From assembly GCA_018062305.1 (NCBI GenBank), contig JAGOSK010000001.1, forward strand, positions 108,826-148,708: a stretch of 39,883 bases of DNA, written 5' to 3'. Origin of the DNA: Minisyncoccota bacterium (GTDB lineage Bacteria > Patescibacteriota > Minisyncoccia > Phycocordibacterales > CAIZLB01). Each line of letters starts with the position of its first letter. The first letter of the stretch is position 1. The position numbers and the translations under genes are program-made. The notes under the pieces are model-generated. The model made no database searches, was not told the origin of the DNA, and was given only the letters and a program-made list of their open reading frames with translations. Positions 14,175 to 25,995 of the stretch are shown piece after piece.

Positions 14175-16142
14175 ATGAGTACTATACACAGCATTATGAA
14201 AGACGCCCTCAAAGACCACATCGTACAGACACTTCTTCGACTGAACCTTATTGAAGAATCTGAGAAAGATCAGACTCACTCCCGAATTATTATCGAGAGG
14301 CCTGCCGATATGTCTCATGGTGATTATGCAACAAATGTAGCAATGCTTTTTGCTCCAAAAGCAAAAAAGAGTCCTCTTGCGCTAGCTATTGAAATTGTTG
14401 AAAACTTGAGAGAAATACTTCCTATAAGTCTTGCGGGAGAGCCAGCGCAGAGTACTTCCACATCAGACAACGAAAACGAACTGAAAAATATACAAAAAAT
14501 TGAAATAGCTGGTCCGGGATTTATTAATATTTATTTAAAAAATTCTGTATACCGTAAAACAATTTCTGAGATTCTAGCAACAGGCGACACTTTTGGTACG
14601 AACACTTCAGAACAAAGTTCAGTTGGGCAGCAAAAGAAAATCGCTTTTGAATATACAGATCCAAACCCATTCAAGGTTTTTCATATTGGTCACCTTATGG
14701 CAAACACAGCGGGAGAGTCTCTTGCTCGTCTTGCAGAAGTTAACGGTGCAGAGGTAAAGCGTTTTTGTTATCAAGGAGATGTGGGAAGACATATTGCACT
14801 CATGATGTGGGGCTTACGACTTGTGGATGGTGGTATTCCAGGTGAATCAGCTAGTATAAGTGAAAAAGTAGCTTATTTTGGAAAAGCCTATGCCTTGGGT
14901 GCTACTGCATTTAAAAAATTGGAAGATGCGAGTAAGGAGGCAGGAGAAGTGGATGATCAAGGGCGTGCTACGGGTGCAGATTTTAAAAAGATGGAGGATG
15001 AGGTTCGTGAACTCAATAGAAAGATTTATGATCGAAGTGATGTTGAGGTAAATGAAATTTATGACAAAGGAAAAGAATGGAGTTTACAACACTTCGAAGA
15101 GTTGTATGAAATTCTTGGCACTAAGTTTGACCGATACTTCTTTGAAAGTCAGGTGACTGATAAGGGTATAGAAATTGTTAAAGCAAATACTACTCCAAAA
15201 GGTGAATCTGTATTTGAAGAAAGTAATGGAGCGGTTATTTTTGCTGGAGAAAAGTATGGTCTGCACACTCGAGTATTTCTCACTAAAGATGGCCTTCCTA
15301 CATATGAAGGAAAGGAAATAGGCCTCGTACCAACAAAATATGATGCATATAATTATGATCTGGGTTTTTATGTTACAGCAAATGAGCAAGATGAATATTT
15401 TAGAGTTGTATTGAAAGCAGCGTCATTTATTTTTCCAGAAATAATTGCTAAGACAAAACATGTGTCTCATGGAATGCTTAAACTGACTACGGGTAAAATG
15501 TCGTCACGAACAGGTGATGTTATTACTGGTGAATCACTTCTGATGGATATGATTGAGAGATCCCTTGAAAAGATGAAAGATAGAGACATGTCTGAGGGTG
15601 AGAAGAAGGATGTTGCAAAGGATGTGGCTGTTGCTGCAATTAAATACACGGTACTTCGACAGTCGCTTGGAAAAGACGTTGTATTTGATCCTGAAAAGTC
15701 TCTTTCTTTTGAAGGTGACTCTGGTCCATACTTACAATATGCATATGTTCGAGCTAAATCACTTCTCAATAAAGCGAAGGAGATGAGTGTGGTTCAGTAT
15801 GTGGATATGGCAGGAACTTCAAAAGAAGAAGGGGAAAGTGTTGTTGGTCCGACCGCTGATGGAGAAAAGACTACAGACAGCGGGTTGATGTTGAAGCTTG
15901 AAAAGACCCTAGCTCGTTACCCTGAAACTATTGAAAGAGCATGGAAAGAACTTTCTCCTCATCATGTTTCAAACTACCTCATTGACCTTGCCGGTACATT
16001 TAGTTCATTTTATGCGAACACTCAAGTTGTGAAGGTTGACGACCCATCTTCTGCTTACAAGGTAGCGCTTGTACAGGCTTTTTCTATTGTAATGAAAAAC
16101 GGCTTGGCTGTGCTTGGTATACGAGTTCCAGAGAAGATGTAG
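14175..16142 (+). CDS. argS: Arginyl-tRNA synthetase
   Basis: Class I synthetase that charges tRNA-Arg. The 655-aa protein has an N-terminal Arg-tRNA synthetase additional domain (RIIIERPADMSHGDYATNVAM, IAGPGFINIYL), the HIGH motif at 170-173 in DPNPFKVFHIGHL, a KMSSR-type loop at about 441 (GKMSSRTGDVI), and an all-helical anticodon domain ending VLGIRVPEKM. The length is somewhat above the family norm because of Ser/Thr- and acid-rich linkers (about residues 88-105, and near 255-275). It follows the membrane-protein pair by 75 bases. Confidence 0.97.
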   Translation: MSTIHSIMKDALKDHIVQTLLRLNLIEESEKDQTHSRIIIERPADMSHGDYATNVAMLFAPKAKKSPLALAIEIVENLREILPISLAGEPAQSTSTSDNENELKNIQKIEIAGPGFINIYLKNSVYRKTISEILATGDTFGTNTSEQSSVGQQKKIAFEYTDPNPFKVFHIGHLMANTAGESLARLAEVNGAEVKRFCYQGDVGRHIALMMWGLRLVDGGIPGESASISEKVAYFGKAYALGATAFKKLEDASKEAGEVDDQGRATGADFKKMEDEVRELNRKIYDRSDVEVNEIYDKGKEWSLQHFEELYEILGTKFDRYFFESQVTDKGIEIVKANTTPKGESVFEESNGAVIFAGEKYGLHTRVFLTKDGLPTYEGKEIGLVPTKYDAYNYDLGFYVTANEQDEYFRVVLKAASFIFPEIIAKTKHVSHGMLKLTTGKMSSRTGDVITGESLLMDMIERSLEKMKDRDMSEGEKKDVAKDVAVAAIKYTVLRQSLGKDVVFDPEKSLSFEGDSGPYLQYAYVRAKSLLNKAKEMSVVQYVDMAGTSKEEGESVVGPTADGEKTTDSGLMLKLEKTLARYPETIERAWKELSPHHVSNYLIDLAGTFSSFYANTQVVKVDDPSSAYKVALVQAFSIVMKNGLAVLGIRVPEKM

Positions 16143-17860: not shown

Positions 17861-20800
17861 ATGGCAGAATCCAATCCAAAGCCCCAGACAGAGGTACATG
17901 CGGGCGATGCATCCAAGACAAAATCTGCCCTGCGAGAAGAAGCTGTTTTGGCTTTTTGGCAGGAGCACAATATTTTTGAAAAAAGTTTAAAGAAAGACTC
18001 ACCTAAGGGTAACTTTGTCTTTTTTGATGGACCACCGTACGCAACTGGTCTTCCACACTTCGGTCACATGATTCCTTCAACAGTGAAGGATATTATTCCT
18101 CGATACAAAACTATGCAGGGCTACAATGTCCAGCGTAAGTGGGGTTGGGATTGTCACGGTCTTCCTATTGAGAATCTTATAGAAAAAGAGCTTGGGCTTA
18201 CGGATAAAAAAGCCATTGAAGAATTTGGTATTGATAAATTTAATAAAGCAGCAAAAGATAGTGTCTTTCGATATGACATAGACTGGAAGCGGCTTGTCCG
18301 TCGCGCTGGGCGCTGGGTTGATATGGAAAATGATTATCACACAATGGATTCAAGCTACACTGAGTCTGTATGGTGGTCGTTCAAAACTCTCGCTGAAAAT
18401 AAAAAATACCATAAAGATGGACTGGTATATGAAGCATTTAAAGTAATGCCATTTTGTCCACGATGTCAGACTTCACTTTCAAACTTCGAAGTAGGGCAGG
18501 GATATAAAGACATTCCAGATATTTCTGCGTATGTGCTTTTCGAATTGCGAGATGAAGGCGACACATCAAGCGGTGGGCACATAGGCGAATCTTTTCTAGC
18601 TTGGACTACAACTCCATGGACACTCCCAGGAAACACAGCTCTTGCCGTAAATCCCGAACTTAAATATTCACTTATAGAAACTGTTCAAAAAGATATTCCT
18701 GTTAAAGTGTGGGTTGCATCTGATTTGATTTCTAAATTGAAAGAAAAAAATATCTTGCCTGAAGCATGCACGACCCTCAAAGAAGTAAAAGGTAGTGAGT
18801 TGGTTGGACAATCTTACGTGCCACCTTTTGATTTCTATACAAAACCTGGAACGCTTCCATCAAATCAAGAAGCAAAAATAAATAATGCATGGAAAGTATA
18901 TGCTGGAGATTTTGTTACCGCAGAAGATGGTACAGGTATCGTGCATATTGCCCCTGCATTTGGTGATGATGACTACAAGCTAGCTGTTGCCCAAGATCTG
19001 CCAATCATCATCCACGTCGGTACAGATGGAAAAATAAAAGAAGGAAATGGTTCGCTTTCTGGTCTATACGCAAAACCAAAAGGGGATCATCAGTTAACGG
19101 ATATTGAAGTAATCAAGTTGTTGGCACATAATACCGTATCTGTCGCAGCTGGAAATGCACCACTCCTCTTTGCAAAAGAAAAACTGGTTCACTCATATCC
19201 ACATTGTTGGCGGTGTGATACTCCGCTTTTAAACTACGCTACTTCATCGTGGTTTGTTCGAGTGACTGAACTCAAAGATAAGCTCATTGAGGAAAATAAT
19301 AAAGTGAATTGGATTCCAAAAGAAGTAGGCGAGGGGCGTTTTGGAAAATGGATTGAAAACGTTCGAGATTGGGCAATTTCACGAAGTCGATATTGGGGTG
19401 CACCGTTGCCAATCTGGAGAGGTCAAAAATCTGGCAAAGTAGAAATAATAGGATCAGTCGAAGAACTCAAGTTAAAAATCAAAGGGCGAGGAAATGCTAT
19501 TACACTTATGCGTCATGGTGAGGCTGAATCAAATGTACTCGATGTGATTAGCTCTGATCGAAGTGAAGAAGGTAGAGAAAAACACGGTCTTACTATGCGT
19601 GGAAAAGGGCAAGTCGAAGAAGCTGCACAAAAAATCCATGCAGACCAGAAAGAGTCTGGTAAAAAAATTACCAAGATTTATGCCTCAGATTTTAGACGAA
19701 CTCGCGAAACTGCTGAGCATGTTGCGAGTGCACTAGGTTTGGATGCATCACAAATCATATTTGACGCACGCCTCCGAGAAATCAATGGCGGAGATTTTGA
19801 TGGTGGTAAATGGTCAGAACGCGCTAGTTTCTTTAATGGTCTCCACGATACAATTTACAAAAAAGTTCCAAACGGCGAATCAGTTGAAGATGTGAAAAAG
19901 AGAACAGCAGAATTTTTGTATGATTTGGATAGTAAACACGAAGATGAAAATATTCTGGTCATAACACACGGACTTCCGCTTCGTCTGATGATAAATACCG
20001 TAAACGGTAAGACATGTCGAGATTTGCTTCGATCAGGTTGGAGAGATTATTCAGACCCAAATGCGTCACTCCATGTGATTGATTTCAAACCACTTCCTCA
20101 TAATGAAAGTATGGAGCTCGATCTACATCGACCATATATTGATGCTGTAACTTGGGAAAGCAAGGTAGAGGAGGGAATCGTGTTTCTTGATGGAACAAAA
20201 TCTGTCGGAGGAGAGACAGAGACAATGGTACGAGTGCCTGAAGTATTCGACGTGTGGTATGACTCTGGTTCTATGCCATTTGCTCAGGCTCATTACCCAT
20301 TTGAAAACAAAGAACTTTTTGAGCAACAGAATAGCCCTATTTTCCCAGCTGACTTTATAGCAGAAGGACTTGATCAGACTCGAGGGTGGTTTTATTCACT
20401 GATGGTTTTGGGTGTGGGATTATTTGATAAAAGCCCATACAAGAACGTAATCGTAAATGGTCTAATGCTCGCTGAGGACGGTAGAAAAATGTCCAAGAGT
20501 CTGAAGAATTATCCGCCGATGGAGCCGACTTTTGATAAGTACGGTGTTGATCCACTCCGATATTTTATCGCTTCGTCATCGGTGACGCATTCTGAAGAAG
20601 TTTTATTTTCTGAAAAGATTCTTGATGAAATTAATAAAAAGATTTTCAATCGGCTGGAAAATGTATATTCATTCTATGTTCTCTATGCCGACAATGTTCC
20701 AATGGGAGAGGGTGGCGAAGCTAGTGAAGCTTCTAACACGCCAGACTCAGTTCCACATTCAGACAATATATTAGACAAATGGATTATCGCTCGGTTGGCT

Positions 20801-21619
20801 GAACTTAAATCAGAAATCGAAAAAGGTCTAGACACATATCAAATAGATAAAGCCGCTCGACCTATTGCAGACATCGTAGATGATCTTTCAACTTGGTATT
20901 TGCGACGTTCACGAGAACGGTTTAAGGGTGATGACGCAAAAGACAAAGAGCAAGCAATGCAAACAACTCGTTTTGCACTACTTACTTTTTCAAAACTAGT
21001 CGCTCCGTTTATTCCATTTATGGCAGAGCATATGTACCAAAACGTGCGAAATGAAATAGCTCGTCTAAGTTCAACTTCAGCAATTCTTATGCCAGAAAGT
21101 GTGCACCTAACAGATTGGCCAACGCTTCCTCCTGTTGACCACACTTTGATTGAATCAATGAAAGTTATTCGAAAACTTGTAGAAACAGGACTCGCTCTGC
21201 GTGCAAAAGCGGGTATAAAAGTGCGACAGCCCTTGGCTTCATTCACATTCACTGAGGAAGATGCGAGCGGCGCAACTGGTATTGAATTCTCTAAAGAGAT
21301 GTTAGAGATAATAAAAGAAGAACTCAATGTAAAAGAAGTTAGAAAGGGTAGTGAATTGGCACTCGATACAAATCTCACTGTTGAACTCAAAGAGGAGGGT
21401 GTGGTTCGAGATATTATCCGTGGTGCTCAAGAAGCTCGAAAGAACGAGGGGCTTGTACCGAGTGACACTATTGCACTGACTGTTTCTGCATCGGCTCCGA
21501 CTCTTGAGATTTTGCGAAAAAATGAAGAGATGCTCAAAAAGCCAATCCAAGCTGAAAGAGTCGAGTATATCGAGATGAATGATGTGGAAGAAGCTTTGTT
21601 GAAGGTCTCTAAAATATAG
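17861..21619 (+). CDS. ileS: Isoleucyl-tRNA synthetase with an inserted histidine-phosphatase domain
   Basis: A 1252-aa class I synthetase of the eukaryote-like type 2: FWQEHNIFEKSL, DGPPYATGLPHFGHM (HFGH at 66-69), GWDCHGLPIE, SRSRYWGAPLPIW, DVWYDSGSMPFAQ, and KMSKS at about 876-880. The C-terminal end has the EARKNEGLVPSD segment seen in this type. Between GSVEELKLK (about residue 540) and DLHRPYID (754) sits a complete phosphoglycerate-mutase-like domain: MRHGE at 550-554, SDFRRTRET at about 610-617, LREINGG with Glu640, and ITHGLP with His703. All four catalytic-pocket elements are present. Both flanks remain in frame with normal IleRS sequence, so this is an insertion inside the catalytic region and not a tail fusion. 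The fold's substrate here is unknown. Confidence 0.96.
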   Translation: MAESNPKPQTEVHAGDASKTKSALREEAVLAFWQEHNIFEKSLKKDSPKGNFVFFDGPPYATGLPHFGHMIPSTVKDIIPRYKTMQGYNVQRKWGWDCHGLPIENLIEKELGLTDKKAIEEFGIDKFNKAAKDSVFRYDIDWKRLVRRAGRWVDMENDYHTMDSSYTESVWWSFKTLAENKKYHKDGLVYEAFKVMPFCPRCQTSLSNFEVGQGYKDIPDISAYVLFELRDEGDTSSGGHIGESFLAWTTTPWTLPGNTALAVNPELKYSLIETVQKDIPVKVWVASDLISKLKEKNILPEACTTLKEVKGSELVGQSYVPPFDFYTKPGTLPSNQEAKINNAWKVYAGDFVTAEDGTGIVHIAPAFGDDDYKLAVAQDLPIIIHVGTDGKIKEGNGSLSGLYAKPKGDHQLTDIEVIKLLAHNTVSVAAGNAPLLFAKEKLVHSYPHCWRCDTPLLNYATSSWFVRVTELKDKLIEENNKVNWIPKEVGEGRFGKWIENVRDWAISRSRYWGAPLPIWRGQKSGKVEIIGSVEELKLKIKGRGNAITLMRHGEAESNVLDVISSDRSEEGREKHGLTMRGKGQVEEAAQKIHADQKESGKKITKIYASDFRRTRETAEHVASALGLDASQIIFDARLREINGGDFDGGKWSERASFFNGLHDTIYKKVPNGESVEDVKKRTAEFLYDLDSKHEDENILVITHGLPLRLMINTVNGKTCRDLLRSGWRDYSDPNASLHVIDFKPLPHNESMELDLHRPYIDAVTWESKVEEGIVFLDGTKSVGGETETMVRVPEVFDVWYDSGSMPFAQAHYPFENKELFEQQNSPIFPADFIAEGLDQTRGWFYSLMVLGVGLFDKSPYKNVIVNGLMLAEDGRKMSKSLKNYPPMEPTFDKYGVDPLRYFIASSSVTHSEEVLFSEKILDEINKKIFNRLENVYSFYVLYADNVPMGEGGEASEASNTPDSVPHSDNILDKWIIARLAELKSEIEKGLDTYQIDKAARPIADIVDDLSTWYLRRSRERFKGDDAKDKEQAMQTTRFALLTFSKLVAPFIPFMAEHMYQNVRNEIARLSSTSAILMPESVHLTDWPTLPPVDHTLIESMKVIRKLVETGLALRAKAGIKVRQPLASFTFTEEDASGATGIEFSKEMLEIIKEELNVKEVRKGSELALDTNLTVELKEEGVVRDIIRGAQEARKNEGLVPSDTIALTVSASAPTLEILRKNEEMLKKPIQAERVEYIEMNDVEEALLKVSKI

Positions 21620-24537: not shown

Positions 24538-25995
24538 ATGACAGAACAAAATGCCGACCATAAAGCAGACCAGAAATTAGCAAAATACCCAGAAGGTACA
24601 ATGGAAAAACTTATTTCCTTGGCGAAACGAAAGGGTTTCATCTACCAAGGCTCTGAGATCTACGGAGGTCTTGCTGGTACTTGGGATTATGGACCACTTG
24701 GAGTAGCTCTCAAAAACAATATTCAAAATCTTTGGTGGAAAAAGTTTGTTCTAGATCGAGAAGATATGTATGGTATCGACGCGGCTATTCTCATGAACCA
24801 AGAAGTATGGAAAGCCTCAGGGCACGTTGGCGGTTTTGCGGACCCACTTGTTGAAGACCTCAAAACACAAAAGCGATATCGAGCAGACCATTTACTCGAA
24901 GAAATGGGTGTTGATCCAAAAGAAATGACTCCAGCTCAAATGGATGCGTATATCAAAGAAAAGGGAATCAAAAGTCCTGAAGGAAATCCACTCGGCGATG
25001 TTCGACAGTTTAATATGATGCTGAAGACTAGTGTAGGTGCGAATGAAGACAGTTCGTCTATTTCATATCTTCGTCCAGAAACAGCGCAAGGTATTTTTGT
25101 AAACTTTAAAAATGTGGTTGATTCATTCCACCCAAAGCTTCCATTTGGTATTGCCCAAATTGGTAAAGCTTTTCGAAATGAAATTGCCCCACGAGATTTT
25201 ATTTTCCGAGTTCGTGAGTTGGAGCAAATGGAAATTGAGTATTTTGTTCGACCAGAGCAATGGGAAGAAATCTTTGAGCAGTTATATGCCGAACAGCAGG
25301 CTTTCTTGCAGGAAATTGGTTTGAGTGAAAATAAATTGCATAAAATAATCGTGCCAGATGCTGATCGTGCACACTACTCAAAGCATAGTATAGACACCGA
25401 GTTTGATTTTCCATTTGGTCAAAAAGAACTTTTGGGTCTTGCGTACAGAACTGATTTTGATTTGACGGCTCACTCCACAGCTTCAAAGGTTGATCTTTCG
25501 TACTTTGACGAAGCTGAGACAGACGCTGAAAAAAAGCGCTTTATTCCACACTGTATCGAGCCGACATTTGGAGTTGGACGATTGCTTCTCGCTGTTCTTG
25601 CTGATGCATACCGAGAAGATACGATAGGAGACGAACCACGTGCATATATGAAGTTTTCGCCAAAGGTTGCACCTATTCTTGTTGCCGTTTCTCCTCTTTT
25701 GAAAAATAAGCCACAGCTTGTAGATAAGGCTCGTGAAATCTTTAATACTTTGCGAAAAGTTTTCCCAGGGCGAGTTGCGTTTGATGATAATGGAAACATT
25801 GGCAAGCGATATCGCCGACAAGATGAAATCGGTACACCTTTTTGTGTGGTGGTAGATTTTGATACTGTTGAAACGACAGACGAAAATAAGGGTGCACTTT
25901 TGAATACTGTAACTGTGCGACATCGAGACACTGGAGAGCAGGAGAGAGTAAGTATGGACGCATTAGTTACAATGCTTAAAAAATCTCAGGAATAG
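24538..25995 (+). CDS. glyS: Glycyl-tRNA synthetase, homodimeric class II type
   Basis: Charges tRNA-Gly. The 485-aa protein is the alpha2 (archaeal/eukaryotic-like, also Gram-positive) type: KRKGFIYQGSEIYGGLAGTWDYGPLG at the N-terminus, NQEVWKASGHVGGFADPL, YLRPETAQGIFVNFKN, motif 2 in FRNEIAPRDFIFRVRELEQMEIEYF, motif 3 around PTFGVGRLLLAVL, and a C-terminal anticodon domain (VAPILVAVSPLL, DEIGTPFCVVVDFD). A -10-like TATAGT about 11 bases before the ATG suggests a very short leader. Confidence 0.97.
   Translation: MTEQNADHKADQKLAKYPEGTMEKLISLAKRKGFIYQGSEIYGGLAGTWDYGPLGVALKNNIQNLWWKKFVLDREDMYGIDAAILMNQEVWKASGHVGGFADPLVEDLKTQKRYRADHLLEEMGVDPKEMTPAQMDAYIKEKGIKSPEGNPLGDVRQFNMMLKTSVGANEDSSSISYLRPETAQGIFVNFKNVVDSFHPKLPFGIAQIGKAFRNEIAPRDFIFRVRELEQMEIEYFVRPEQWEEIFEQLYAEQQAFLQEIGLSENKLHKIIVPDADRAHYSKHSIDTEFDFPFGQKELLGLAYRTDFDLTAHSTASKVDLSYFDEAETDAEKKRFIPHCIEPTFGVGRLLLAVLADAYREDTIGDEPRAYMKFSPKVAPILVAVSPLLKNKPQLVDKAREIFNTLRKVFPGRVAFDDNGNIGKRYRRQDEIGTPFCVVVDFDTVETTDENKGALLNTVTVRHRDTGEQERVSMDALVTMLKKSQE

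Follow-up and report, generated by a model that had tools for sequence, protein, structure and literature searches.

A histidine phosphatase domain nested within the isoleucyl-tRNA synthetase of a Minisyncoccota bacterium

Introduction

Aminoacyl-tRNA synthetases with extra domains are already known. Among isoleucyl-tRNA synthetases (IleRSs), the NCBIfam family NF040702 (ileS_w_GNAT) joins the synthetase to an N-acetyltransferase domain, so that an IleRS carrying an extra enzyme domain is, as a general kind, not new. Type-2 IleRSs, represented by TIGR00392 and by the structures from T. thermophilus (1ILE), yeast (7D5C) and P. megaterium (IleRS2, 8C8U), share a framework with the HIGH and KMSKS motifs, a CP1 editing domain, an anticodon-binding domain and a DUF5915 tail. 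In the nomenclature of the yeast enzyme, CP2 (420-458) is followed by the linker ARDWNVSRNRYWG and by CP3 (459-526) (PMC7955072). Branch-1 histidine phosphatases (HPs; PF00300), such as iPSP1 (4IJ5/4IJ6), PhoE (1H2E), the A. aeolicus HFP (9MMH) and CobC, are free-standing enzymes. The pocket of the A. aeolicus HFP consists of R8, H9, R58 and H149, together with N15 and E82 (PMC12051542).

Here we describe an IleRS gene of a Minisyncoccota bacterium (assembly GCA_018062305.1, contig JAGOSK010000001.1). The whole stretch of DNA analysed, referred to as the window, is 39,883 nt long and corresponds to positions 108,826-148,708 of the forward strand. The encoded protein shares the type-2 framework and differs from the described type-2 enzymes in having about 215 more residues in CP3, which amount to a complete phosphatase. 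Its extra domain is not that of ileS_w_GNAT, whose model it matches with 312 bits against a cut-off of 1999, and it has no GNAT match in Pfam. The phosphatase resembles iPSP1, PhoE, the A. aeolicus HFP and CobC in fold (Z 19-21) and in the pocket residues R, H, N, R, E and H, but is nested in another enzyme. An HP embedded in the IleRS catalytic half throughout most of one order, recurring in valyl-tRNA synthetase (ValRS), appears to be undescribed. An earlier note on this DNA knew of no function for such a fusion, and we likewise found no publication on it or on its substrate in the library searched, which took in few subscription journals and preprints.

Results

An intact type-2 IleRS interrupted in CP3

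The ileS gene reads from end to end without a stop and encodes 1252 residues (Table 1). Its product scored 854.4 bits with TIGR00392 (cut-off 621.4), and the NCBIfam models of MupA/MupB-type IleRS also scored high. Both Pfam domains named in the earlier note were matched, PF00133 at 5.2e-130 and PF00300 at 1.7e-29 (aa 547-743), along with Anticodon_1 and DUF5915. The closest solved structures by phmmer were IleRSs of T. thermophilus, of eukaryotes and of type-2 bacteria. The match to 1ILE covered aa 25-539 and resumed at aa 787 to run to 1119, with a break that coincides with the insert; the synthetase is therefore normal on both sides of it, as had been read from the sequence before. Motifs and domains follow the type-2 order of HFGH, editing domain, KMSKS, Anticodon_1 and DUF5915. 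By score, motifs and domains the protein is a type-2 IleRS, and it is predicted to charge tRNA-Ile.

The placement given in the earlier note, between GSVEELK and DLHRPYID and upstream of KMSKS in an unbroken frame, was borne out. By the yeast nomenclature (PMC7955072) the insert lies in CP3, on the C-terminal side of the SRSRYWG linker and ahead of DVWYDSG and KMSKS. In many relatives the HP insert splits two CxxC-like pairs of the CP3 zinc knuckle, whereas the window copy is without these cysteines. Across 25 aligned inserts of the order, N545 and P746 at the junctions were invariant and H747 nearly so.

Table 1. Features of the ileS gene and its nested phosphatase (window coordinates)
Feature	Position	Strand	Basis
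ileS, type-2 IleRS with inserted HP domain, 1252 aa	17861..21619	+	single ORF, TIGR00392, PF00133, PF08264, PF19302
IleRS N-terminal part: catalytic half with HFGH, CP1 editing domain, CP2, start of CP3, to GSVEELK537	17861..19471	+	phmmer 1ILE aa 25-539
HFGH, class I HIGH motif, aa 66-69	18056..18067	+	sequence
Inserted segment, aa ~538-753, with conserved junctions	19472..20119	+	gap in 1ILE match, uninterrupted relatives
HP domain, branch 1, aa 547-743	19499..20089	+	PF00300 E=1.7e-29, 1EBB 7.4e-9, AlphaFold2 pLDDT 93.8, Z 21.5 to 4IJ6
R551-H552, phosphate-pocket Arg and nucleophilic His	19511..19516	+	invariant in 25 aligned IleRS inserts
N558, phosphate-pocket Asn	19532..19534	+	at least 90% conserved (25 inserts); role from PMC12051542
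R613, second pocket Arg	19697..19699	+	invariant in 25 inserts and in the 82-row alignment
E640, general acid/base	19778..19780	+	invariant in 25 inserts; Asp only in ValRS copies L057 and L059 (82 rows)
H703, second pocket His	19967..19969	+	invariant in 25 inserts; lost only in ValRS copy L057 (82 rows)
IleRS C-terminal part: remaining CP3 (LHRPYID), second catalytic half, anticodon-binding domain, DUF5915	20120..21619	+	phmmer 1ILE aa 787-1119, Pfam
KMSKS motif, aa 876-880	20486..20500	+	sequence

A complete phosphatase pocket under purifying selection

The active-site elements recognized in the earlier note were found at their places, R551 and H552 in MRHGE, R613 in FRRTRET, E640 in LREINGG and H703 in THG. 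Together with N558 they supply all six pocket residues of the A. aeolicus HFP. The PF00300 match, at 103 bits, lay well above its cut-off of 21.7, and the phosphatase 1EBB was matched as well. By its pocket residues and predicted fold, the domain is a branch-1 HP.

Conservation of the pocket was followed at two depths. The 25 IleRS inserts from the order showed no variation at R, H, R, E and H, and at least 90% conservation at N. In an alignment of 82 HP sequences that takes in ValRS, tandem, fused and free copies, the same five residues were kept in 80 rows. Both exceptions are ValRS copies, one with Glu changed to Asp (L059) and one with Glu changed to Asp and the second His to Ser (L057:391-3369, minus strand), the latter probably inactive. 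Between near relatives, dN/dS of the domain was about 0.04-0.11, similar to that of the IleRS core, figures that are rough because dS is near saturation; by this measure the HP domain is under strong purifying selection. Judged from the conserved pocket, the nested phosphatase is very probably active.

None of the NCBIfam equivalogs of the histidine phosphatase superfamily reached its cut-off with the window protein. The scores were 81.7 bits against 162.9 for CobC alpha-ribazole phosphatase (TIGR03162), 66.8 against 350 for PspA phosphoserine phosphatase (NF045917), 70.3 against 225 for the phosphoglycerate mutase dPGM_arch (NF038349) and 28 against 74.5 for sixA. Naming the function by family is thereby ruled out, and no substrate can be assigned in this way.

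The fusion is shared by relatives

We surveyed 61 genomes, the organism's own and others of its genus, family and order, and an HP within a synthetase-sized frame was present in 57 of them. All same-genus and same-family relatives sampled carry the insert. Two members of the order (G034 and G041) have a complete, uninterrupted IleRS without HP, in frames of 980 and 974 aa, so the domain can be lost. As for the remaining genomes, the IleRS of one (G029) is cut at a contig end and another (G050, 68% complete) gave no IleRS match. The earlier note had named mis-assembly and insert-less close relatives as grounds for doubt; the insert in every genus and family member sampled goes against both. That the insert is an artefact of assembly or recombination on this contig has next to no probability, since other, independent genomes share the insert, among them contigs named as Paceibacterota, Taylorbacteria and Zambryskibacteria, and nothing was found in favour of an artefact.

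The fusion is not the single oddity it had first seemed, but class-wide in our survey, and many of the ultra-small Paceibacteria and Patescibacteria have it. In the phylum sample, the insert was present within an IleRS-sized frame in all eight members of the class. Across the phylum as a whole, the majority of IleRSs are uninterrupted, about 80 of 103 genomes by an empty-site query whose table was read by eye. When one genome per species was scanned, named matches came from Paceibacterota, Taylorbacteria, Zambryskibacteria and unnamed Parcubacteria or Patescibacteria; the scan used one peptide pattern and was non-exhaustive, so that it is compatible with fusions outside Patescibacteria.

Other hosts, other sites and evolutionary history

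HP domains were also found in ValRSs of Patescibacteria, namely L031 (945 aa), L032 (933 aa), L057 (993 aa), L059 (1108 aa), L064 (1278 aa, two copies) and L159 (928 aa). These agree with the window IleRS in domain type and in location, the corresponding region that separates the catalytic halves; they differ in being another synthetase and in being rare, and most of their HPs sit elsewhere in the HP tree. All HP-bearing synthetase frames that were classified, a subset, were IleRS or ValRS, a recurrence that hints at a link with these two synthetases. Within IleRS, tandem HP pairs occur (L066, 1480 aa; L067, 1467 aa), and a second site for HP lies past KMSKS, ahead of the anticodon-binding domain (L065 and L091). 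With this second site, the ValRS copies, the tandem pairs and the loss in relatives, a fixed spatial relation of HP to the synthetic site does not seem to be needed. The earlier proposal that a phosphatase beside that site could act on a nucleotide, on tRNA ends or as a regulator of charging finds no support in these data.

Several of these loci have features of their own. The 1451-aa Patescibacterial IleRS of L065 (3138-7490, minus strand) carries a GNAT acetyltransferase before KMSKS and HP after it. At L091 (32-5521, plus strand), the second-site IleRS has downstream of it, in one row, a 161-aa ORF similar to YbaK-type deacylases, a free HP and a threonine dehydratase-like gene, as read by eye. 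The neighbours of free-standing HP relatives were mixed and, apart from that row, shared nothing among the loci examined. HP is also fused to a 2-hydroxyacid dehydrogenase in two genomes, to a nucleotidyltransferase-like protein and to pyruvate kinase (L068, L070, L069 and L071).

The CP3 loop accepts other sequences as well. In one Patescibacterial family (L134-L137) it holds an insert of about 135 residues that is not HP and that, in L134-L136, gave no match in a Pfam scan; the site thus tolerates insertions.

A tree built from 114 IleRS cores calls for no fewer than 16 changes between HP-bearing and HP-less states, or 14 once weak nodes are collapsed; with shuffled labels the mean was 31. 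A single insertion without loss is accordingly not favoured. Distances between HPs correlated with those between cores (r=0.40), more strongly than in any of 999 permutations, which lends only weak support to purely vertical inheritance. In the HP tree, IleRS and ValRS copies fall into several groups, with free-standing HPs among the IleRS ones, and the second tandem IleRS copy adjoins ValRS copies (0.93 support). This scatter fits repeated gain, exchange and loss. By these comparisons, the HP-IleRS fusion is genuine and old, with repeated gains or losses.

Predicted structures

The window IleRS (aa 15-1135) was modelled by AlphaFold2 with 19 sequences, giving a pLDDT of 83.6 and a pTM of 0.78, with about 90 for HP and 87-91 at both junctions. 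Against yeast IleRS (7D5C), 829 residues of the synthetase aligned at Z 40.2 and rmsd 3.2. HP modelled alone reached pLDDT 93.8 and pTM 0.91. Its best match was the phosphoserine phosphatase of H. thermophilus (4IJ6; Z 21.5, rmsd 2.5, 184 residues), followed by a near-tie of small-molecule phosphatases and mutases that includes glucosyl-3-phosphoglycerate phosphatase, PhoE and a riboflavin-pathway phosphatase. In these models the IleRS fold is intact despite the insert, and the HP fold is predicted with confidence. The conserved junctions, with pLDDT of 87-91, suggest fixed docking of the domain and not a loose passenger, which is compatible with a function in regulation or at the end of the tRNA.

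Discussion

With an HP nested in an intact IleRS, the gene product would be a two-enzyme protein. A branch-1 HP has entered the insertion-tolerant CP3 loop of a type-2 IleRS, leaving the predicted IleRS fold unbroken, and isoleucine charging would continue as usual. The phosphate of the substrate would pass to H552, held by R551, R613, H703 and N558, with E640 as acid/base, and phospho-H552 would then be hydrolysed by the standard chemistry of the family. The substrate would be the phosphatase's own, most likely a small phosphorylated metabolite, with no direct step in aminoacylation, and the domain would stay tethered to the synthetase. We give about even chances to an active phosphatase tethered to IleRS and acting on its own, probably small substrate. 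The complete pocket, the presence in 57 of 61 genomes, the low dN/dS, the intact folds and the small-molecule enzymes among the nearest structures count for it, and the copies in ValRS, in tandem and at the second IleRS site, the loss in relatives, the unrelated inserts in the CP3 loop and the fusions to other enzymes favour independence of the phosphatase from the synthetase. The missed NCBIfam equivalogs count against this reading, and so, as regards independence, do the conserved, confidently modelled junctions and the restriction of classified hosts to IleRS and ValRS. If independent, the phosphatase would clearly exemplify a hotspot at which small genomes lodge enzymes inside an essential gene.

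It is less probable, and on balance doubtful, that an undescribed phosphatase step is coupled to charging with Ile and Val in Patescibacteria, by taking a phosphate off the tRNA acceptor end or off a signalling nucleotide produced or sensed at the synthetase, although this would explain the repeated placement in IleRS and ValRS. A phosphatase tied to charging would be a new repair or control step in the translation of Patescibacteria.

One form of such coupling, in which HP acts on the acceptor end of the tRNA, for example clearing a charging-blocking 3' phosphate or another terminal phosphate before or during charging, we consider unlikely. The CP3 location adjoins the CP2-CP3 linker, which in the yeast enzyme forms part of the wall of the catalytic site (PMC7955072), the junctions look rigid in the model, and ValRS bears HP at the matching place; however, the second-site and tandem copies misfit any one fixed geometry, the structures nearest to HP act on small molecules, and two relatives have lost the domain.

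Quite unlikely, too, is regulation of the synthetase, in which HP would tune charging by dephosphorylating a regulatory nucleotide, a partner protein or IleRS itself. Among the hosts classified, fusion is repeatedly to the Ile and Val enzymes only, and the superfamily includes protein phosphohistidine phosphatases such as SixA (PMC7948535). Neither a kinase partner nor a regulatory phosphosite came to light, however, and the window protein falls far short of the sixA model's cut-off.

Improbable, finally, is the reading of HP as a structural spacer with no remaining need for catalysis: the degenerate ValRS copy in L057 and the non-HP inserts in the same CP3 loop would fit it, but none of the 25 aligned IleRS inserts departs from the core pocket residues and dN/dS is as low in HP as in the IleRS core.

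The neighbours of ileS in the window, ArgRS, a UPF0176/rhodanese protein and RecO, gave no lead to the function of HP. The gene lies in a translation-rich stretch, with ArgRS upstream (14175-16142) and a class II tRNA synthetase (PF00587 and HGTP_anticodon) downstream (24538-25995). At two further loci (L138 and L139), the CP3 loop of IleRS carries short extra stretches that resemble translated repeat elements.
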